Translations under genes and position numbers: made by a program
The notes under the pieces: model-generated
Seen by the model: only the letters and a program-made list of their open reading frames with translations
Database searches by the model: none
Told to the model about the DNA's origin: nothing
Shown: piece after piece, positions 39,374-49,392 of the stretch
How positions within the stretch are numbered: the first letter of the stretch is position 1
How the letters are laid out: every line of letters begins with the position of its first letter
Assembly: GCA_017511925.1 (NCBI GenBank)
Contig: JAFWHS010000014.1
Location: forward strand, 158,637 to 222,636
Length of the DNA stretch: 64,000 nt
Direction: 5' to 3'
Origin: Candidatus Saccharimonadota bacterium
GTDB taxonomy: Bacteria; Patescibacteriota; Saccharimonadia; Saccharimonadales; Saccharimonadaceae

Positions 39374-39976
39374 CTACTTATCTCCTTTCTCAAACGGCAT
39401 TCCAAAGAGTTCTAGCAACTTGTAGCTTCCTTCCTTTGAACCATTTTTGATAATAAACGTAATCTCAAGGCCGTGCAAAGCCGCTGCATCTTCGAAAGTA
39501 ATTTCTGGGAATACAGTTTGTTCTTTGAGACCTAAATTATAATTACCTTGTGCATCAAATGCTTTTCTCGACACACCGTGAAAATCACGTACGTGCGGCA
39601 ACGCAATATTGATCAAACGATCTACGAATTCATACATCTTATCATTGCGAAGCGTTACAAGATAACCAACTGGTGCGCCCATACCTTTACGAATCTTAAA
39701 GGTAGCGATTGACTTCTTTGCAAGTCTCGACGTTGGTGCTTGACCAGTAATTTTTGCAAGCGTGAGCTCTACCGTCTCGGTAAATCTCTTGTCTTCACGC
39801 TTTTTACCCACGCCAGAAGACACAATTACCTTCTTTAGCTCTGGCACCTGGCTAATATTTTTTAGCTCTAACTCTTTTGCAAGTTTCGCCTTTAGCTCGT
39901 TGTTGTAGAGAGCTTTGAGACGTGGTTGTGCTTTAGCTACTTTTGTAACCTTGGCAGCCGTTTTCTTTTCCGCCAT
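39374..39976 (-). CDS. rplE: 50S ribosomal protein L5
   Basis: 200 aa. [20 protein letters not shown], the KMGAPVG-like [20 protein letters not shown] and PEITFEDA blocks identify L5, which binds 5S rRNA. A Lys/Ala-rich N-terminal extension of about 20 residues precedes the core. Its ATG shares a base with the rplX stop (TAATG). Confidence 0.96.
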
Positions 39977-40254
39977 TATTTAGCTCCTTTCTTAACTGCT
40001 TTTTTAGCAACTTTCTTTTCTTCCTTGGCAGCCTCTACCAATTTCAAATTAGAAAGATCAATTCCTACATGAATGGTCTTCTTACCACCAGCTGGGTTGA
40101 GATATGATTTCTTCATATGGCGCTCAACCACACCAATTCCTTCAAGGCAAGCTTTGCCAGCCTTACGGTCAATCTTCACGATCTTGGCTTCAGTACCTTT
40201 GTGAGCTCCAGCAATCACGCGAACTTTGTCGTTTGCTTTCAAATTCTGTGCCAT
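39976..40254 (-). CDS. rplX: 50S ribosomal protein L24
   Basis: 92 aa from ATG 40254. KOW motif KVRVIAGAHKGTEAKIVKID and the KSYLNPAGGKK region identify L24. GGAGGT precedes the ATG, which begins one base after the rplN stop; the longer open frame reads into rplN and is rejected. A basic tail (KKVAKKAVKKGAK) extends the C-terminus. Confidence 0.95.
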   Translation of the reverse strand: MAQNLKANDKVRVIAGAHKGTEAKIVKIDRKAGKACLEGIGVVERHMKKSYLNPAGGKKTIHVGIDLSNLKLVEAAKEEKKVAKKAVKKGAK

Positions 40255-40255
40255 A

Positions 40256-40624
40256 TTATAGTACCTCCGGTGCAAGACTGATAATCTTCGAGAAACCAAG
40301 GTCACGAAGCTCACGAGGGATCGGGCCAAACACGCGCGTACCCTTTGGAGTCTTATCGTCATTTACGAGCACTGCAGCATTTTCATCAAAACGGATAGTT
40401 GAACCATCTGGACGACGAATCGGAGCTACCGTTCTTACGATCACTGCACGCACTACTGCTTTTTTCTTAATGTTGCCAGTTGGCGAGGCTTCCTTCACTG
40501 AACAAGTTACGATATCGCCTACTCTAGCATAGCGAGCGCGAGTACCACCAAGCACGCGGATTACTCCGAGCTCTTTAGCGCCACTGTTGTCGGCAACTTT
40601 TAGTCTAGTTTCCTGCTGGATCAT
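40256..40624 (-). CDS. rplN: 50S ribosomal protein L14
   Basis: 122 aa. [20 protein letters not shown] and [20 protein letters not shown] are typical L14 blocks, and the length is the family norm. Its first 20 bases overlap the 3' end of rpsQ in another frame. Confidence 0.97.
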
Positions 40625-40892
40625 TGATATCCTCCTTTAATTCTACCGTGCCACGCGCTTTCTCTACGATCTTAGCCAAAGTATAAGCTTTGGTACGAGA
40701 AAGTGGACGGCAGGCTACGATTTCTACACGGTCACCAACCTTTGCCTCATTCTTTTCATCATGTGCAGTATATTTACGAGTCTTCGTGTACTGCTTGCGA
40801 TAAAGTGGATGAGTTTCACGCGAAACAATCGCAACGGTAATGGTCTTATCACGCTTGTCGGAGGTAACTGTGCCTACGAGTGTATGTGCCAT
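40605..40892 (-). CDS. rpsQ: 30S ribosomal protein S17
   Basis: 95 aa. [18 protein letters not shown] and [20 protein letters not shown] identify S17. rpmC (L29), which almost always separates rplP from rpsQ, is missing: only one base lies between the two genes. Confidence 0.95.
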
Positions 40893-40893
40893 C

Positions 40894-41313
40894 TTAAAAC
40901 TCCTCTTTCTTTATAATTTTACATTTCACTGGCAACTTGTGTGAAGCAAGACGAAGAGCTTCTTTAGCCTTGTCTTCCGCCACGTCAGCGATTTCAAACA
41001 TCACTGTACCAGCTTTCACCTTAGCTACATAAAATTGTGGCTCACCCTTACCAGAACCCATTTTTACATCAAGTGGTTTCTTGGTAACTGGCGTATGTGG
41101 GAAAATCCGAATCCAAATTTTACCACCACGCTTAATATAACGTGTAATTGCCTGACGTGCTGCCTCGATTTGGCGCGAATTAATGCGCTCATTATCAAGT
41201 GACATCAAACCAAATTCACCAAATGCTACAGTATTACAGCGTGTAGCTACGCCTTCGTTTTTACCTTTGCGCACTTTGCGGTGTGCAGTTTTTCTTGGAA
41301 GTAAAATAGCCAT
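40894..41313 (-). CDS. rplP: 50S ribosomal protein L16
   Basis: 139 aa. Begins [20 protein letters not shown] and has [20 protein letters not shown], the loop near the peptidyl transferase centre. It follows rpsC after one base in the standard order. Confidence 0.97.
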
Positions 41314-41314
41314 C

Positions 41315-41941
41315 TTATTTCTCCCCCTTGTAAATCCAAACTTTCACGCCGACGATACCAGCAATAGTTGGTGCGTGATGACAATAAAAATCAATATCTG
41401 CGCGAAGTGTATGTAGAGGCACCGAACCTTCAATAAATTTCTCACGGCGGCTCATTTCAGCGCCATTAAGACGACCTGCTACCTCGATACGCACACCCTT
41501 AGCACCCGCATTCATAGTAGATTGTAAAGCCATTTTTACAGCCCGGCGGAAATTCATACGCTTGCCAAGTTGAAAACCGATGTTTTCAGCTACGAGCTTA
41601 GCATTTAATTCCGGTTTCTTTACTTCTTCTACGTTGATACGAATCGGACCTTCAACGATTTTTTCAATTTGCTTTTTTAGCTCGTTGATACCTGCACCTT
41701 GCTTACCAATCACGGCGCCAGCTTTTGCTGTCAAAATCGTAATCGTAGTAAGGTTCGCCGAACGTTCAATGTTTACCCGCGCAATTGTTGGACGAGCTTT
41801 AAATCTCTCTTCAACCATCTTGCGAATCTTGTCGTCTTCCACTAGCCAGCGACGAAAATCTGCCTTCTTTGTAAACCACTTCGAAGACCAATCTTTGCTG
41901 ATCTGGAGACGGTAAGAGATGGGATTAACCTTCTGACCCAT
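41315..41941 (-). CDS. rpsC: 30S ribosomal protein S3
   Basis: 208 aa. MGQKVNPISYRLQISKDWSS, the KH domain (AGAVIGKQGAGINELKKQI) and the C-terminal domain (GRLNGAEMSRREKFIEGSVP) identify S3. It lacks a long C-terminal tail. It is followed by rplP. Confidence 0.97.
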   Translation of the reverse strand: MGQKVNPISYRLQISKDWSSKWFTKKADFRRWLVEDDKIRKMVEERFKARPTIARVNIERSANLTTITILTAKAGAVIGKQGAGINELKKQIEKIVEGPIRINVEEVKKPELNAKLVAENIGFQLGKRMNFRRAVKMALQSTMNAGAKGVRIEVAGRLNGAEMSRREKFIEGSVPLHTLRADIDFYCHHAPTIAGIVGVKVWIYKGEK

Positions 41942-41942
41942 A

Positions 41943-42359
41943 TTACTTTTTCTCCTTTTCTGCCTTTGCGTCAGCCTTAGCTTCTGCTGGAGCAGCTTTC
42001 TTTACTTTCTCTTCGCCGGTGACCTCGACGAATATATTACTACTAATCTTCTCAAATGGAAGCGCACGACCACGTGAAGCTGGCACGTAACGGCGCATTC
42101 TAGTACCGCTAGTTACAAAAATTCTTGCAATTCTCACGGTCTTTGGATCAATCGACACCTTAGAATTATTCAAAAGGTTAGCATTTGCCGATTCTACAGC
42201 CTTAAGTACTGCACGAGCAGCACGCCTAGGTGTATTTTCCAAAATCACTACCGCATCAGATACGTAGCGATCACGTACGAGCGATGCCACAATACTAGTC
42301 TTGCGTGGTTGGGAGTCGATGCCCTTTTCATATGCATGTGCAAAATGAGTTTCAGCCAT
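41943..42359 (-). CDS. rplV: 50S ribosomal protein L22
   Basis: 138 aa. SLVRDRYVSDAVVILENTPR, AARAVLKAVESANANLLNN and the exit-tunnel hairpin GTRMRRYVPASRGRALPFEK identify L22. An Ala/Lys/Glu-rich tail of about 25 residues ends the protein. Confidence 0.96.
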   Translation of the reverse strand: MAETHFAHAYEKGIDSQPRKTSIVASLVRDRYVSDAVVILENTPRRAARAVLKAVESANANLLNNSKVSIDPKTVRIARIFVTSGTRMRRYVPASRGRALPFEKISSNIFVEVTGEEKVKKAAPAEAKADAKAEKEKK

Positions 42360-42362
42360 ATT

Positions 42363-42656
42363 CTAACCCTTTCCTTTCGCAGCCGCAGCTTCTGCAGCTT
42401 TCTTACCGCCATGGCGCTTAAATTTACGTGTTGGTGCAAACTCGCCAAGCTTATGGCCGACCATATTTTCTGAAACAAACACCGGCACATGAACTTTACC
42501 ATTATGTACAGCAATCGTCCGACCCACCATCTCTGGCGAAATCGTAGAGTGCCTGGCCCAAGTTTTAATCACAGTGCGATCAGAACTGTCGAGAGCGGCA
42601 ATTTTCTTCGCGAGCTTGTAGTCCACAAATGGACCTTTCTTTAGACTCCGAGACAT
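42363..42656 (-). CDS. rpsS: 30S ribosomal protein S19
   Basis: 97 aa. [40 protein letters not shown] and [20 protein letters not shown] are classic S19. Its ATG shares a base with the rplB stop. Confidence 0.97.
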
Positions 42657-43492
42657 TATTTCCTCTTTCCTTCGTGACGACTACGCACGATATATTTATT
42701 AGTTTTCTTATTACGACGAGTACGATAACCAAGTGTAAGTTGACCCCAAGGCGTACGAGGAGCCTTACCAGAACCGTGACGACCACCGTCACCACCACCG
42801 TGTGGGTGATCCGTAGCATTCATTACTACACCACGTACCGTTGGGCGAATACCCTTACGACGACGACGTCCTGCTGCACCAATCTTTACGTTTTGATGCT
42901 GAACATTCGAAACCGTACCGATCGAAGCCTCACAGCCTACCAATACTTTACGCACTTCGCCAGATGGCATCTTAAGAGTGGCATAGCCATTCTCTTTTGC
43001 CATAAGCTGTGCTGAAGCACCCGCTGCACGTACCATCTGTGCGCCTCTACCCGGTGTAAGCTCAATAGCATAAACAAACGTACCTACTGGGATTTTCTCT
43101 AGTGGCAAACGATTAGAATCTTCCACCTCAATTTCATCACCAGTCTTAAAAGTCGTACCTTTTGTCATTTTGGTATCAGCAAGCACATAATAATATGTAC
43201 CATTTTGATCTTTCACACGAGCAATTCGTGCTGAACGGTTTGGATCGTATTCGATCTCTTCTACCGTCAAGACCAAACCTTTTGGTAGATTATAAGTCAT
43301 GATACGATAGTGTCTCTTCACACCACCACCACGATGACGCACCGTAATTCGCCCCTGGTTGTTTTTACCAGCTTGCTGTTTTTTGCTAGCTAGCAAAGAC
43401 TTCAAAGGCTTCTTGGTTGTAATTTGATCGTAATCCTCAGTCGTCTTCTGGCGTTGTGCCGGAGTGACTGGACGATAAGCCTTAATTGCCAT
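42656..43492 (-). CDS. rplB: 50S ribosomal protein L2
   Basis: 278 aa. The RNA-binding core, the [20 protein letters not shown] segment and the C-terminal peptidyl-transferase loop [20 protein letters not shown] (with the essential His) are intact. Start overlaps the rplW stop. Confidence 0.97.
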
Positions 43493-43896
43493 TATTTATT
43501 CTCCTTCCCTGCATTCTTGTCAGCCTTTTTAGCTTTCTCAGCTTTTGGGGCTTCCTTTGCGCTGGTTTTATTTTCTTCTGGCTCTTCAAATACCTTGATT
43601 GAATTACCTTCTGCCAAAGTCACGTATGCATACTTCTTATCCTGGCGATGTGTAATACCTGGGTAAGCGTGCTTACCTTTGCTGTATTTCGTCTTTTTGC
43701 CATTACGGATGAGCGTACGTACATCTGTCACTTTCACACTAAATTCTTTTTCTACAAGAGCTGCGATTTCTTGCTTAGAAGCAGTACGCTTTACTGGAAA
43801 TACATAAGTACGCTTAGTCTGCTCTAAATAAGTCTTTTCAGTAGCTCTTGGCTCCAAGAGGTGTAATTCTACTTTTGCAGTTTTCTTTTCCGCCAT
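43492..43896 (-). CDS. rplW: 50S ribosomal protein L23 with Lys/Ala-rich tail
   Basis: 134 aa. EPRATEKTYLEQTKRTYVFP and KVTDVRTLIRNGKKTKYSKG identify L23, the exit-site protein contacted by trigger factor and SRP. A tail of about 35 residues rich in Glu, Ala and Lys makes it longer than the usual 95-100. Confidence 0.94.
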   Translation of the reverse strand: MAEKKTAKVELHLLEPRATEKTYLEQTKRTYVFPVKRTASKQEIAALVEKEFSVKVTDVRTLIRNGKKTKYSKGKHAYPGITHRQDKKYAYVTLAEGNSIKVFEEPEENKTSAKEAPKAEKAKKADKNAGKENK

Positions 43897-43897
43897 C

Positions 43898-44494
43898 TTA
43901 CTTCTCCTCCTTTAGCCAATCAGTTGTAGCCTTAAGTGCAGCTTCGCTAAATACAATCGCATCTGCGTTCATAATGTCAAATACATTAAGATAAGTTGCG
44001 CGTACCAATTTTACATTTGGCAAATTATTGGTCGAACGAAGCACTTCTGGTGTTTTCTCTGCTGCTACTGCAAGCACATTTTTGCCTTCAAGCTTCATGT
44101 CTTTCAAAACTTTTGCTGCATCTTTAGTCTTACCGGTCAACTTTACATCAACTGGCAAAATCAATACTGCTTTTTCCGCATTCTTCATCGACAAAGCTTG
44201 GCGTACTGCCAATTTCTTAGAAGAACGTGCGATTTTCTTGGTAAAGTTCTCTTCACCGGTGCGGCCAAATGCTACACCACCATGGCGCCAAATTGGATTA
44301 CGAGTCGAACCAAAACGAGCTCTACCAGTACCTTTTTGCTTCCATGGCTTCTTACCACCACCACGCACCTCACCACGCTTCAAAGTTTTTGCGTGTGAAG
44401 AACGTGAATTTGCAAGATATGCATCATAAGCCAATTTAACAAGTTCATGATTTTCGACGGAAAGGCCGAACACTTCTTTATCTAAAGTTGCCAT
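43898..44494 (-). CDS. rplD: 50S ribosomal protein L4
   Basis: 198 aa. The tunnel loop KTLKRGEVRGGGKKPWKQKG then TGRARFGSTRNPIWRHGGVA is diagnostic. In E. coli L4 represses its own operon through the S10 leader; whether that holds here is unknown. Confidence 0.97.
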   Translation of the reverse strand: MATLDKEVFGLSVENHELVKLAYDAYLANSRSSHAKTLKRGEVRGGGKKPWKQKGTGRARFGSTRNPIWRHGGVAFGRTGEENFTKKIARSSKKLAVRQALSMKNAEKAVLILPVDVKLTGKTKDAAKVLKDMKLEGKNVLAVAAEKTPEVLRSTNNLPNVKLVRATYLNVFDIMNADAIVFSEAALKATTDWLKEEK

Positions 44495-44495
44495 A

Positions 44496-45116
44496 TTACT
44501 CCTTTCCCTCCACTGTTACAATACCTTTTTTCGGTCCAGGCACTGCGCCCTTAAGGCCGATTAGGTTATTTTCTACATCTACATAGGCCACTACGAGATT
44601 CTTTACTGTTACAGTATCGTGTCCCATACGACCTGGCATTTTCTTACCCTTCCAAACTTTTTGCGGATACATAGAGCCGATAGAACCAACTCTACGAATA
44701 TTCCCCTTAAAGCCGTGGGTATTGCGAGATTCTTGGAAATTGTGACGCTTTACTGTACCAGCAAAACCTTTACCTTTGCTTGTACCAGTCACCGTTACCT
44801 TATCTCCCAATTTAAATCCTTCTACGGTGATAGCATCACCGAGTTTGAGTCCTTCTGGGATCTCTTCTACACGAAATTCCTTGAGAACCTTAGGATTTAT
44901 ATTTTCACCAGCCTTTTTTACGTGGCCAGTTACCGACTTGCTCAGATTCCGACCCACACCATATCCCATTTGCACAGCGTTATAACCATCGCTCTCGATA
45001 GTTTTAATCTGAGTCACTGCGCATGGGCCAGCTTGCAGAATCGTTACCGGAGTAACTTCGCCTGTCTCGCTGATGATCTGAGTCATACCAATTTTGGTGC
45101 CGAGAATGACTTGCAT
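44496..45116 (-). CDS. rplC: 50S ribosomal protein L3
   Basis: 206 aa. MQVILGTKIGMTQIISETGE, GTSKGKGFAGTVKRHNFQES and the GQKVWKGKKMPGRMGHD-like YPQKVWKGKKMPGRMGHDTV identify L3. It is the first gene of the cluster: rpsJ (S10), which normally begins this operon, does not precede it. Confidence 0.97.
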   Translation of the reverse strand: MQVILGTKIGMTQIISETGEVTPVTILQAGPCAVTQIKTIESDGYNAVQMGYGVGRNLSKSVTGHVKKAGENINPKVLKEFRVEEIPEGLKLGDAITVEGFKLGDKVTVTGTSKGKGFAGTVKRHNFQESRNTHGFKGNIRRVGSIGSMYPQKVWKGKKMPGRMGHDTVTVKNLVVAYVDVENNLIGLKGAVPGPKKGIVTVEGKE

Positions 45117-45280: not shown

Positions 45281-45309
45281 ATTTTACCACACTTTTTCCC
45301 TTTTGACAA
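45281..45309 (-). promoter_or_regulatory. Promoter of the S10-type operon
   Basis: In minus sense, TTGTCA (45309-45304), 17 bases ending AAGTGTGG, TAAAAT (45286-45281). It overlaps the plus-strand control region of the DGR genes: TTGACA at 45303-45308 and TATAAT at 45321-45326, whose 12-base spacing is poor. Confidence 0.65.
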
Positions 45310-45356: not shown

Positions 45357-46208
45357 ATGGACATGCGCCAATCTATTGCAGAAATTGAACAACAACTGAA
45401 ATCCCTCAAAAAGCAAGGCCTTAAGAATAAAATTGCTAAAGCTGAATATTCTCAAATCAAGAGCGCCTTAAATAAACTTTACTCAGAAAACAAACACACT
45501 GTTATGCAATTTGAAAAAACTAACTACGAACACCTAGTACTAGTACGTTCCACAAACAATTTTTATAAACTCTTTGGGCACTCTGCCTTATTTTACGCTC
45601 ACAGTATCGCCCCAAAACTCAATCTAAAAGCCAACCTCCAAACCGACGGCGATTTCGCCACCAAATCAGATGTTGGTTTTATCTCTATTCGCGAACCCGA
45701 GAAACTCACTGAAGCTCTTACCACCATCGGTATCAAAAAAGTAAAGACCAAAGATCAAACCGGCAACTTCCTACTCTATAAACTTCCTTGGACTTTCACC
45801 GAAAACGAAGTCGCCGAATTTATCGAAGATAATCATTTCAAAATGCGTAGTTTTAATCATGTAGTGCTAGTAGACAATATCATCCCCGTCCTCTTCATCC
45901 AGCTTGAGGAACTTTTAAAAGCTGTTTATGAAAACGTTCGCGGCATGGGTGGCCCAGTCGAACGCGAAACTTTTGGCTATGACGCTATTCGCATCGCCAA
46001 CGAAATGGTCCATTCATACTTAGATCTCGCCAACGGCAAAACCGATAAACTCACCTGCCTTAAGAAACTTAAAATCAAATTAAGTTTTCTTAAATATCAG
46101 ACCAAAATCATCACCGATCTCAAAATTTGGCAGCCCAAAGTTTGCGCCCGTATCGGTGATATCATTATCAAAGTCCAGGAAATCATAGACCGTGAAAGCC
46201 ACAACTAG
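45357..46208 (+). CDS. DGR accessory protein: MutS-like domain fused to Avd-like four-helix bundle
   Basis: 283 aa from ATG 45357, chosen because AGGAG lies seven bases before it; an upstream ATG at 45303 has no such site. Residues 1-45 are a charged coiled-coil-like segment. Residues about 50-150 resemble the MutS mismatch-recognition domain (EHLVLVRSTNNFYKLFGHSA, then GFISIREPEKLTEAL and TTIGIKKVKTKDQTGNF). Residues about 170-283 look like an Avd / S23-type four-helix bundle with many Arg and Lys (IQLEELLKAVYENVRGMGGP ... LKYQTKIITDLKIWQPKVCA). Avd binds the RT and TR RNA, and MutS-like proteins are known as separate DGR accessory genes; a single chain with both is unusual. It ends nine bases before the RT gene. 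Confidence 0.75.
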   Translation: MDMRQSIAEIEQQLKSLKKQGLKNKIAKAEYSQIKSALNKLYSENKHTVMQFEKTNYEHLVLVRSTNNFYKLFGHSALFYAHSIAPKLNLKANLQTDGDFATKSDVGFISIREPEKLTEALTTIGIKKVKTKDQTGNFLLYKLPWTFTENEVAEFIEDNHFKMRSFNHVVLVDNIIPVLFIQLEELLKAVYENVRGMGGPVERETFGYDAIRIANEMVHSYLDLANGKTDKLTCLKKLKIKLSFLKYQTKIITDLKIWQPKVCARIGDIIIKVQEIIDRESHN

Positions 46209-46217
46209 GAAGAACTT

Positions 46218-47333
46218 ATGAATTTTCATGATTTTTTACTAAAAGAACTTTTCGAAGCTTATCATAAAGCTCGCGTTGGCGGCAAACGCAAAACCGAAGA
46301 CGAACACCGCTTTGAGGCCAACGATATCGAAAATATTCATCATCTTTGCGACACTATTATGGCTCGTCGCTACAAACCAAGCCGTGGTGTAGCTTTCATA
46401 ATTCATGATCCAGTCACGCGTGAAGTTTTCGCTGCGCCCTTCATCGATCGCGTCATTCATCATTTCCTCTTCAAATTTGCCATCGCCTGGTGGGAGCCAC
46501 GTCTTTCGCCAGCTTCTTATTCTTGTCGCAAACAAAAAGGCACTCTCTACGGCATCAAAGATTTACAGCGCAAAATGCGCCGCGTCTCGCAAGATGGACA
46601 CATTCCTGCATACGTTGTGAAGCGTGATCTGCGCGGCTATTTTATGAGTCTTGAACATAAACGCCTCTATGATCGAGTCGTTTGGGGATTAAATCGCCAG
46701 TTTCCAAACGGTGGCGAACTTTATCGCACTCTCAAATATCTCTGGCGTGAAATAATCTTTGATACCCCTACCGAAAATATAAAAATCCGCGGACGTAGAA
46801 GCGACTGGAACGATCTCCCACCAGACAAAAGCCTATTCAGCCAGCCCAAAGGTCGCGGTGTAGTCATCGGCAACCTAACCTCTCAACATCTCTCAAATGT
46901 TTATTTGGACCAACTGGATCGCTACATTACTATCACCCTGGGCTATAAAAACTACGGTCGCTACGTAGATGATTTTTATATCGTAGTCACCGAAGAAGAA
47001 CTGCCAATTCTTATGCAGGATATGTACAAAATCGAAAGATATATCGAACATCTCGGCCTAGTCTTGCACCCTAAAAAACAATATGAAATCCCAGTCAAAG
47101 ACGGCGTAGAATTCCTCGGCGCCAAAGTTTTCATTGACCATATCTTACCCGGCGAACGCATCAGCAAAAATTTCGCCAACTCTGTCTACAAATTAGCCAC
47201 TACTGGAGCCGGCAAATTAGATGGCATCAGCTCATATGATGGTCATCTAGCTCATTATAATAGTCATAAACTTAGCAAAAAAATCTACGACGGAGTAGGT
47301 TGGGACTACCCCTATCCAAAACTAAAAAAATAA
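46218..47333 (+). CDS. DGR reverse transcriptase
   Basis: 371 aa. The palm has YVDD in YGRYVDDFYIVVTEEEL (domain 5) and the DGR-diagnostic domain 4 motif GVVIGNLTSQHLSNVYLDQL, where DGR RTs have IGNLTSQ instead of the QGxPxSP of group II intron and retroviral types. Domain 1-3 blocks SYSCRKQKGTLYGIKDLQ and VVKRDLRGYFMSLEH carry the first catalytic Asp. The length fits the compact RTs of this class, with no endonuclease or maturase domain. It is expected to make error-prone cDNA at template adenines. It is preceded by the accessory gene and followed 50 bases later by the TR. Confidence 0.96.
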   Translation: MNFHDFLLKELFEAYHKARVGGKRKTEDEHRFEANDIENIHHLCDTIMARRYKPSRGVAFIIHDPVTREVFAAPFIDRVIHHFLFKFAIAWWEPRLSPASYSCRKQKGTLYGIKDLQRKMRRVSQDGHIPAYVVKRDLRGYFMSLEHKRLYDRVVWGLNRQFPNGGELYRTLKYLWREIIFDTPTENIKIRGRRSDWNDLPPDKSLFSQPKGRGVVIGNLTSQHLSNVYLDQLDRYITITLGYKNYGRYVDDFYIVVTEEELPILMQDMYKIERYIEHLGLVLHPKKQYEIPVKDGVEFLGAKVFIDHILPGERISKNFANSVYKLATTGAGKLDGISSYDGHLAHYNSHKLSKKIYDGVGWDYPYPKLKK

Positions 47334-47341
47334 TCTCCTTG

Positions 47342-47382
47342 GAACTTGTAGACCGCAAGTTCGCTCTAACTTATCAAGAGCG
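47342..47382. promoter_or_regulatory. Twin hairpins between RT gene and TR
   Basis: GAACTTG / CAAGTTC (47342-47362, 7-bp stem, 7-base loop) abuts CGCTCT / AGAGCG (47362-47382, 6-bp stem, 9-base loop), ending one base before the TR. Read in TR sense they lie just 3' of the template, where characterised DGRs have a structured spacer needed for priming of cDNA. Assigning that role here is inference. They could also terminate the RT transcript. Confidence 0.6.
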
Positions 47383-47383
47383 T

Positions 47384-47613
47384 GGAAAGTCGGGAGGAAA
47401 GAAAACGCGGAACAGTAAACGCCCTACTACCTAGCTACGCAGCGCACGGAGTTGCCGTTGTTGCGATTGTTGTTGTTCTGGGGGTTCAAGTTCCCATTCA
47501 CATTGAAGTTGAGGTTGTACGAGTTGTTCTCATTGTTGACTACAGACGACCAGTAGTTGCCGTTGCTGCCTACATTCCAGGACTCGCCTTCCCAGTTCCC
47601 GCCATAAGTAAAG
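47384..47613 (-). repeat. DGR template repeat (TR), 230 bp
   Basis: Aligns without gaps to 47871-48100 with 29 differences. Read on the minus strand it would encode the C-terminus of the target, but with Asn codons (AAC or AAT) at nearly every variable site. This is the typical DGR template design, since AAY can become many residues but never a stop. It lacks a start codon and is non-coding. The first 67 bases in plus orientation (the 3' end in target sense) are almost identical to the VR and would include the homing-initiation region. Confidence 0.96.
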
Positions 47614-47870
47614 TCGCAAAGACAGTAATTAAAAAGAATATTTTATCCTCTGCATACCCCTTGAGATATGCGACGGCACAGCATGAAACCTAGTTTAGTC
47701 ACCAGGCATATTCTTTGCCTTTCCAGATTATAGTACCAACACCGGAGTGAGCACCACCTCGGATCCTGCATTAGACTACGCGGTCTACCGCATTACCATT
47801 TTAGCATGTTTCCCTGTCTTTTTTGCTACATTTGTAGCTTTTTGGTTTCAAAATGAATTTCTTGGATTTC
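47614..47870 (-). ncRNA. Region upstream of TR: probable 5' part of the TR transcript
   Basis: No gene is visible in these 257 bases. In minus sense there are two candidate -10 elements, TAAAAT (47803-47798, preceded by ATGC) and TATAAT (47732-47727), either of which could start the TR RNA. Several short hairpins are visible, for instance TAGAC / GTCTA and GCATA / TATGC. A structured non-coding RNA reading into the TR fits; it matches no RNA family I know. Confidence 0.45.
47825..47838. promoter_or_regulatory. Hairpin just 3' of the VR
   Basis: GCTACA / TGTAGC (6 bp, 2-base loop, or 5 bp with a 4-base loop), 32 bases beyond the VR in target sense and bounded by T runs. In Bordetella phage a small hairpin or cruciform just after the VR promotes mutagenic homing. 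Alternatively it is a weak plus-strand terminator. Confidence 0.5.
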
Positions 47871-48100
47871 GGAAAGGCGGGAGGAAGGAAAACGCGGAAC
47901 AGTAAACGCCCTACTACCTAGCTACGCAGCGCACGGAGCTGCCGCCGAAGCGATAGTAGCCGCTCTGGGGGTTCAAGGCCCCATCCACATCGAAGCCGAG
48001 GTAGTACGAGTAGTCCTCATTGGAGACTACAGACGACCAGTAGTCGCCGCCGCCGCCTACATTCCAGGACTCGCCTCCCCAGTACCCGCCATAAGTAAAG
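47871..48100 (-). repeat. DGR variable repeat (VR), 230 bp
   Basis: Covers the last 61 codons of the target, its stop codon and 43 bases beyond. Compared with the TR, 27 changes fall in the coding part, all at TR adenines in coding sense, altering 20 residues. Examples are Asn to Tyr, Gly, Asp, Ser, Ala and Phe. Two further changes lie past the stop at 47877 and 47887; the one at 47887 is not at an adenine and may mark the IMH/IMH* difference that makes homing one-way. Confidence 0.96.
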
Positions 48101-49392
48101 AATACTGGCGTATTTTGAATATTGCCACTTGTACCAGAAGTTAAGCTAAGCTGATTCTTGAGATACAAGAACGAACCAGAACCAGTTTGTGTAGTACCAC
48201 TTTTTGGTAGCATCCAGCCTGCTGGACAGATAGACTGATTTACATCTTGATTCTGTGTAGTATAACTACTAGAATCATTCATAGCCACCGCAGCTGTCCA
48301 GTTATAATAATTACCGATACTATAGTTCATATTACTGCCGTCTATGCAAGCCGTAGTACCATTGTCTAGTGTAGTTTCCCAGTTTTCATCCAAAACACCA
48401 TTCCAACACAAATTACCTGGATCATACGACTCTGGCGAAGTAGTAGAATAATTCCACGTCGTAACGCCCTTCGCATAAGTAGAAGTGCTTGGTGTCCAGT
48501 TTGCAGGAATATCAGTGTTGGATGGAGTATATGTCGTACTAGAGTTTAGGTCTAAGTCTAAGTTTTGCGTCATCCATATATTGCCATCAGCCAGCTTTGC
48601 AATATAATAAGCCTTTTGATCGCGACTATCCTTCAAGGAATATTGTGTATTTTGCACCATACTAGATAACACACTTGTTTTCTCTGCAGAACTGAGTGTT
48701 GCAAATTGTTGCATATACTCTAACTGATTAATAGACGTAATCGTACCAGGGTTATTTACTACTGCTGCAAACACTATCGTAGTACCATACACACCGGCCG
48801 GAGTATTATTATCAATTTTTGCACCAAAAGTCAAAGTGGTAGTATTTGCATTGCCATTGGTGCTAGTAGTCGCTATATCCGTAGATGTGGTTGGTACTGG
48901 AAGATAATTGGTGGAAGCATCTACGCCATTTTTTACACAAGTAGTACACTTATAGCCCCACATATTGGTAAGAGCACTACTAGCCTCAATCTCGGCCTGC
49001 GTATAGCCACCCGATGTAGACGTGATAGCTGCAATCGTAGGGGTATTACCATTATTAAGAGCCTCTGTACGTTTCAAAGCACCGTTTAAGGTAGGATCAG
49101 TCACCATTTTAAGCGAATAGCCATATTGGCTACTCGTACCTACGGTAATATTAAAATCTTCCGAACCAAATCTGCCGCTACTAGATGGTGTAAGGTCTAA
49201 CACTATCGAGCTACTATCTATCTCCATCTCTAGAGTTTCACTAGACGCGTCAAGCTGAAACTGCACCGTCGCTGCAGAAGCATAATCAGCCTGCGAAGCA
49301 GCCCACACAGTCGCAGCCACACCAAAAACTGCGCATACACTGCCAATTTTACCCCACGCTTTACCATTAAGTGTATGTATTTTCCTTTTCAT
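47914..49392 (-). CDS. DGR target: secreted FISUMP / C-type-lectin-like variable protein
   Basis: 492 aa. Signal peptide (about 1-40, ending near YASA-ATV), beta-rich N-terminal domains with Ser/Thr-rich sequence (about 42-225), then a Fib_succ_major domain: LKDSRDQKAYYIAKLADGNI, IWMTQNLDLDL and CPAGWMLP. The C-terminal 61 residues are the VR and end VRCVAR, a fold expected to present the 20 variable residues on one face, as in other lectin-type DGR targets. The variable sites are rich in Tyr, Gly, Asp and Ser, the usual binding-face composition. Export implies a surface role in recognising host cells or phage. TAATAT ends six bases before the ATG. It is paralogous to 31600-32835. Confidence 0.95.
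   Translation of the reverse strand: MKRKIHTLNGKAWGKIGSVCAVFGVAATVWAASQADYASAATVQFQLDASSETLEMEIDSSSIVLDLTPSSSGRFGSEDFNITVGTSSQYGYSLKMVTDPTLNGALKRTEALNNGNTPTIAAITSTSGGYTQAEIEASSALTNMWGYKCTTCVKNGVDASTNYLPVPTTSTDIATTSTNGNANTTTLTFGAKIDNNTPAGVYGTTIVFAAVVNNPGTITSINQLEYMQQFATLSSAEKTSVLSSMVQNTQYSLKDSRDQKAYYIAKLADGNIWMTQNLDLDLNSSTTYTPSNTDIPANWTPSTSTYAKGVTTWNYSTTSPESYDPGNLCWNGVLDENWETTLDNGTTACIDGSNMNYSIGNYYNWTAAVAMNDSSSYTTQNQDVNQSICPAGWMLPKSGTTQTGSGSFLYLKNQLSLTSGTSGNIQNTPVFFTYGGYWGGESWNVGGGGDYWSSVVSNEDYSYYLGFDVDGALNPQSGYYRFGGSSVRCVAR

Follow-up and report, generated by a model that had tools for sequence, protein, structure and literature searches.

We analyzed a 64,000-nucleotide stretch of a Candidatus Saccharimonadota bacterium contig (hereafter the window), in which a preliminary description made from the letters alone had recognized a complete diversity-generating retroelement (DGR). 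The locus comprises an accessory gene and a reverse transcriptase (RT) gene on one strand, and a template repeat (TR), a variable repeat (VR) and the target gene that runs into the VR on the other (Table 1). TR and VR are both 230 nt long and align without gaps at 29 mismatches, exactly as had been described. In target (minus) sense, the changes from TR to VR are 17 A>G, 8 A>T, 3 A>C and 1 T>C, and on realignment TR adenines, which occupy 60 of the 230 positions, still hold 28 of the 29 (hypergeometric P = 3e-18). Twenty codons are changed, and the template codon is Asn (AAC or AAT) at 18 of them, Glu at one and Ser at one, which bears out the earlier count of 20 residues with an almost wholly Asn template. 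The repeat extends 43 nt beyond the target stop codon, and this tail contains three TR adenines as well as the single non-adenine mismatch and one of the A>C changes; pyrimidine-rich repeat tails were seen by eye in many relatives. The pair is the longest direct repeat found in the window. A search of the bacterium's own genome with the TR returned only the TR itself, the VR and a 74% stretch in the TR of a second DGR, with no further remote VRs.

Table 1. Features of the DGR locus, in window positions.
Feature	Positions	Strand	Remarks
Accessory gene, 283 aa	45357..46208	+	N-terminal MutS-domain-I-like part (~residues 22-148) and C-terminal Avd (172-283)
MutS-domain-I-like part, residues 22-148	45420..45800	+	putative, from moderate homology
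Avd part, residues 172-283	45870..46205	+	four-helix bundle; by fold and profile
DGR reverse transcriptase, 371 aa	46218..47333	+	IGNLTSQ and YVDD motifs
7-bp hairpin just 3' of TR	47342..47362	-	T-run ~10 nt further (TR sense); predicted, possible 3' end of TR RNA
Template repeat (TR)	47384..47613	-	sense opposite to RT gene
Extended -10 TGCTAAAAT of separate TR transcript	47798..47806	-	prediction only
Terminator-like hairpin facing RT-side transcript	47825..47838	+	prediction only
Tail common to VR and TR after stop	47871..47913	-	candidate homing end, like an initiation of mutagenic homing (IMH) site; putative function
Variable repeat (VR)	47871..48100	-	last 61 target codons, stop and 43 nt beyond stop
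Target gene, 492 aa	47914..49392	-	hydrophobic N-terminal signal-like segment (by eye); C-terminal FISUMP domain with VR

The RT next to the repeats, with the two motifs read in the preliminary description, is of DGR type by sequence. It matches PF00078 (1.4e-8) and phrog_1423 (7e-66), and its best match among solved structures is the DGR RT of Bordetella phage BPP-1 (8ub7, 6e-24), which carries IGSLTSQ in place of IGNLTSQ; the second is a group II maturase (0.0014). The phylogenetic check proposed earlier grouped the window RT with DGR RTs, beside those of Bacteroides phages, in a midpoint-rooted tree that had no clean non-DGR outgroup because five of the eight rows labelled group-II-like were themselves [IL]GNLTSQ DGR-type RTs.

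The target contains a FISUMP domain above cut-off (TIGR02145, 2.5e-12), as do 5/5 other targets of the genus that were scanned. A protein search with the target found one other natural copy, P0070, which is likewise 492 residues long and 92% identical. The 40 differences between them are distributed unevenly: residues 1-124 have 2, residues 125-243 (window 48664-49020) have 20, the adjoining residues 244-431 have none, and the 61 VR codons have 18. Residues 125-243 are perhaps a recombination patch. All 18 VR differences fall on the 34 adenine-containing TR codons and none on the other 27 (Fisher P = 1.9e-6). The VR excess over residues 244-431 is strong (Fisher P = 1.2e-12, with a boundary at residue 244 that was chosen from the data) and persists against all 431 pre-VR residues with their 22 differences (6e-8). 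When P0070 was compared with the window TR, 20 residues differed, 19 of which are reachable by adenine changes alone, the exception being Glu478. Because the VR differences all lie on adenine TR codons and 19/20 are adenine-reachable, the two copies look as if they had been separately rewritten from one template.

Such data could also come from a recent relic, a DGR whose VR was rewritten in the past, the differences seen today being standing variation that ordinary recombination has shuffled. In favor of a relic, activity is judged from two target copies, and the 20 differences in residues 125-243 reveal divergent patches elsewhere in the target gene. However, the open reading frames (ORFs) are intact, the 188 residues next to the VR are identical while 18 of 61 VR codons differ, all of them adenine codons, and the same cassette type with a TR/VR pair is present in many sister species. 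We therefore consider a relic highly unlikely. The earlier statement that the system "is or recently was active" agrees with the comparison of the two natural copies, between which the VR, whose invariance had been named as a refuting outcome, does vary; judged by these, the DGR has recently been working, and very likely it goes on rewriting the C-terminal FISUMP domain of its predicted-secreted target.

The accessory protein had been called fused, which is right in substance and can be refined: its C-terminal part is an Avd, and its N-terminal part probably a MutS domain I. The Avd assignment applies to the C-terminal half only, where it is given by fold and profile; the NCBIfam Avd model scores the protein far under its cut-off (17 vs 80 bits). 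The ORF has an alternative TTG start open at 45303. This is not a full MutS mismatch-repair protein, since its 283 residues include no connector, core, clamp or ATPase domain and the remainder is Avd; furthermore, MutS II-V profiles found no match (p at least 0.2) in the N-terminal half of an alignment (A2) of 30 of the 34 family members (L024, L043, L054 and L063, which all match both half-profiles, were omitted). No sequence relative in the PDB was found with the single protein, and profiles gave chance-level matches (best E 0.11 and 0.034). MutS-like (MSL) DGR accessories were reportedly described by Wu et al. in 2018, presumably the source of the MSL/PF01624 accessory class.

Whether the N-terminal domain is MutS domain I or an unrelated alpha/beta nucleic-acid-binding domain special to the genus depends on evidence of several kinds. 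Three methods (Pfam, a fold search and MutS-profile comparison with A2) point to one domain over one colinear stretch, and 29 of 30 accessories have an aromatic residue (F, W or Y) at the site that aligns with MutS Phe36. Against this, the PF01624 match is under the Pfam cut-off and occurs in 1/30 members, and at the site that aligns with MutS Glu38, 21/30 have Lys and just 3/30 Glu. Structural comparison is divided: MutS domain I rows came first in the fold search, with middling Z and the GFRP fold within 1 of the best, and other folds ranked first in Foldseek. The invariant residues of the domain (K46, E53, N56, S76 and D97) form no MutS signature known to us, which we counted in favor of an unrelated domain. 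On the other side, the PF01624 accessory family has already been tied to DGRs in print (PMC10053308). An unrelated domain is possible, in our view, but doubtful. A nucleotidyltransferase reading (G-N-S-A-L ... D-x-D) was dropped when the fold search put MutS domain I first; no nucleotidyltransferase was among the 50 fold-search matches listed, which excludes nothing.

We compared genomes across the genus, order and phylum. RT relatives (1e-20) were present in 23 of 36 genus genomes, own genome included, vs 0 of 24 other genomes of the order, and in 56 of 99 genus genomes of a larger, overlapping draw; viral contigs gave none in a close pattern scan. The species genome collection yielded one named relative, a contig from the ileum of a goat assigned to Candidatus Saccharibacteria (L068), whose RT is 66% identical. 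At 32 of 36 RT loci (the window and 35 genus RT neighbourhoods), there is a TR/VR pair in which 70% or more of the mismatches fall on adenines, a test that the BPP-1 control passes at 18/22. In the pool of these 32 passing loci, TR adenines account for 647 of 695 mismatches, made up of 291 A>T, 271 A>G and 85 A>C changes. Among the four loci with no passing pair, L024 and L064 are whole short contigs, a contig ends ~1.3 kb from the L035 RT, and for L038 there is no such explanation. The Asn bias of the template is likewise general: the TR codon is AAC or AAT at 365 of 413 varying codons in 25 cassettes (L066, L067 and L052 omitted; L043, L045 and L065 without a target ORF; L040 with repeats of unequal length).

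The fused accessory appears to be a trait of this genus. Its profile matched 6 of 379 phylum genomes, three within the genus through both halves and three outside it through the C-terminal half only, the latter being Avd-sized ORFs beside RT ORFs. Free-standing Avds of 127-133 residues are found in L160 and L161, the nearest phage DGRs, and in L066 of the same genus. In the RT tree, which took 15 of the 34 fused-type RTs, these 15 form one group (100/100) with L062 as its deepest branch, joined to L066 and two phage RTs (99/98). On these sequences, the simplest reading would be one Avd fusion at the base of the fused-type RT group.

Several neighboring observations were made. Two DGRs of the same genus, L066 (7297-9146) and L067 (2921-4458), have a free-standing Avd and a TR on the RT strand; L066 has an RT that clusters with those of phages and a VR that ends a 1997-residue ORF. 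The bacterium's own genome carries a second DGR (L034, one of the 35 neighbourhoods; G000:C24, ~123158-127213) with an RT 51% identical to that of the window, a same-family accessory ~20% identical, a 573-residue FISUMP target, and TR and VR inverted. In G470, a genome of ~700 kb, there are four DGR-type RTs of full length, which share 45-66% identity with the window RT. The window DGR directly adjoins a ribosomal-protein operon (window 39976-45116), whose genes we take to be L24, L14, S17, L16, S3, L22, S19, L2, L23, L4 and L3.

The inverted TR noted in the preliminary description proved to be a trait of nearly all fused-type cassettes seen. With L068 included, the TR lies on the strand opposite the RT in 30 of 31 (exception L053), and past the RT 3' end in 27 of 31, at a gap of -42 to 283 nt. 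In contrast, 11 of 12 DGRs with a free-standing Avd have TR and RT on one strand (exception L098). These 12 are six phages, L066, L067, L079-L081 and L098; for Vibrio phage VP58.5 and Pseudomonas phage Cruim01, we assigned the Avd by position and size to proteins recorded as gp19 and hypothetical. The contrast of 30/31 with 1/12 is significant (Fisher P = 2.4e-8), in a comparison where the fused loci are one clade and not independent. In the fused-type cassettes L043, L053 and L062, the TR is placed differently (upstream of the accessory gene, or on the RT strand). L052 has just six mismatches and, since every one is A>T, its two repeats can trade the roles of TR and VR; the TR is opposite the RT either way, and swapping them yields the common layout.

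We then asked how such a TR would be transcribed, using 26 of the 32 TR/VR loci (L066 and L067, of another RT type, were omitted, as were L043, L052, L053 and L062, whose TR is elsewhere or ambiguous). In an interval 170-250 nt before the TR in TR sense, which was fixed after inspecting the data, 24 -10-like hexamers were found in 17 of 26 loci vs 6.5 +/- 2.5 in local shuffles (0/300 as high), and extended -10 elements in 9 of 26 loci vs 0.7 expected. Flanking regions were at chance, and the opposite strand had 11 hits in 7 loci. A stock promoter scan of the window showed no excess. The hairpin 3' of the TR fails the intrinsic-terminator criteria used, and an intrinsic terminator after the TR was found in 4/26 loci only. 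A conserved structured leader RNA before the TR was not supported across the loci compared, and the only known RNA families at gathering scores were tRNAs (window and eight other loci), with other matches far below gathering. The TR RNA might instead be 3' read-through of the target mRNA, given that one strand of the window carries the target, VR and TR one after another, as in 9 of the 26 cassettes with a TR beyond the RT. In the other 17, however, the VR lies upstream of the accessory gene on the RT strand, and therefore the target mRNA cannot include TR sense; moreover, the -10-like elements cluster before the TR. Read-through thus seems to us an unlikely source, and the inverted TR is probably self-transcribed, as far as sequence can tell.

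An accessory with a MutS-like part raises the matter of MutS in these hosts. In a search made with MutS_I as the only MutS domain, 0 of 60 relatives (the 36 genus genomes and 24 of the order) scored above cut-off, whereas 11 of 14 control genomes matched; across the phylum, 60 of 286 genomes did, every match listed lying outside the order. Because MutS_I was not found in these relatives, it is unlikely that the N-terminal domain is a shield against host MutS. Weak MutS_I matches were seen in 676- and 642-residue frames of two order relatives, L093 and L096.

We propose that the TR would have a promoter of its own ~190 nt upstream and would be transcribed from it into a separate RNA, on the other strand from the accessory and RT genes. 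The RT, with the accessory bound via its Avd part, may copy this RNA to cDNA with random bases opposite adenines, and the cDNA would replace the VR via the common tail past the stop codon. Least certain is the step in which the MutS-domain-I-like part might grip a mismatched duplex, of cDNA with either the old VR or TR RNA, and so aid homing, in bacteria where the MutS_I search found no MutS. A likely use would be changing a binding tip on the epibiont surface. More tentatively, and with some doubt, the cassettes may be a genus-wide lineage that captured a MutS mismatch domain onto Avd and moved its template out of the avd-RT operon as a free-standing RNA gene, the accessory reading the mismatched cDNA/target duplex in MutS-less bacteria and replacing functions for which other DGRs rely on the RNA spacer or the host.

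DGRs themselves are known; the present one is of a form seen at the level of the genus, in which the accessory is fused and the template is inverted and probably transcribed on its own. The entry of mutated DGR cDNA into the target is an open step of the DGR mechanism, and a clade with a candidate mismatch-binding module on the accessory, in hosts where no MutS was found, makes a role for heteroduplex recognition directly testable by deletion of one domain. A movable template apparently with its own promoter suggests a way to aim a DGR at new targets, and several different hypervariable surface-type proteins in a sub-megabase genome could plausibly drive variation in the host range of an epibiont or in its escape from phages.

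Parts of this picture have precedents. DGRs of the Candidate Phyla Radiation (CPR)/Patescibacteria are already published, as had been stated (PMC8144416, PMC10221324). PMC10053308 names HRDC and MSL (PF01624) with Avd as known DGR accessories, and PMC6642488 gives inverted-RT cassettes as minor patterns. In PMC12875486, deleting mutS in E. coli is reported to leave unchanged the DGR repair of a reporter with an 18-nt insertion; MutS does not act on such an insertion, which leaves room for mismatch binding to play a part at adenine sites. Neither an Avd-MutS fusion nor DGRs of this genus appeared among the titles and abstract openings listed in the literature searched, whose coverage leaves out the likeliest sources.

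Among known systems, the BPP-1 DGR (avd-TR-brt, mtd) is alike in its RT, Avd, adenine-biased TR/VR and VR at the target C-terminus; unlike the present cassette, its Avd is free-standing and avd, TR and brt share one strand, whereas here Avd is fused and the TR lies past the RT on the other strand. Within the phage collection, the RT is best matched, at 36-39% identity, by those of the DGRs of Bacteroides phage F2 and faecal phage scaffold MT836212. These DGRs also supply the nearest non-genus RTs in the tree, but have a free-standing Avd of 127-129 residues, in which no N-terminal domain was found, and a TR on the RT strand. The clade 2 DGRs of Patescibacteria/CPR (Roux et al. 2021, PMC8144416) share the host group and are cell-encoded, and MSL accessories (PMC10053308) are comparable as PF01624-type proteins linked to DGRs, a type that the N-terminal domain described here probably shares.
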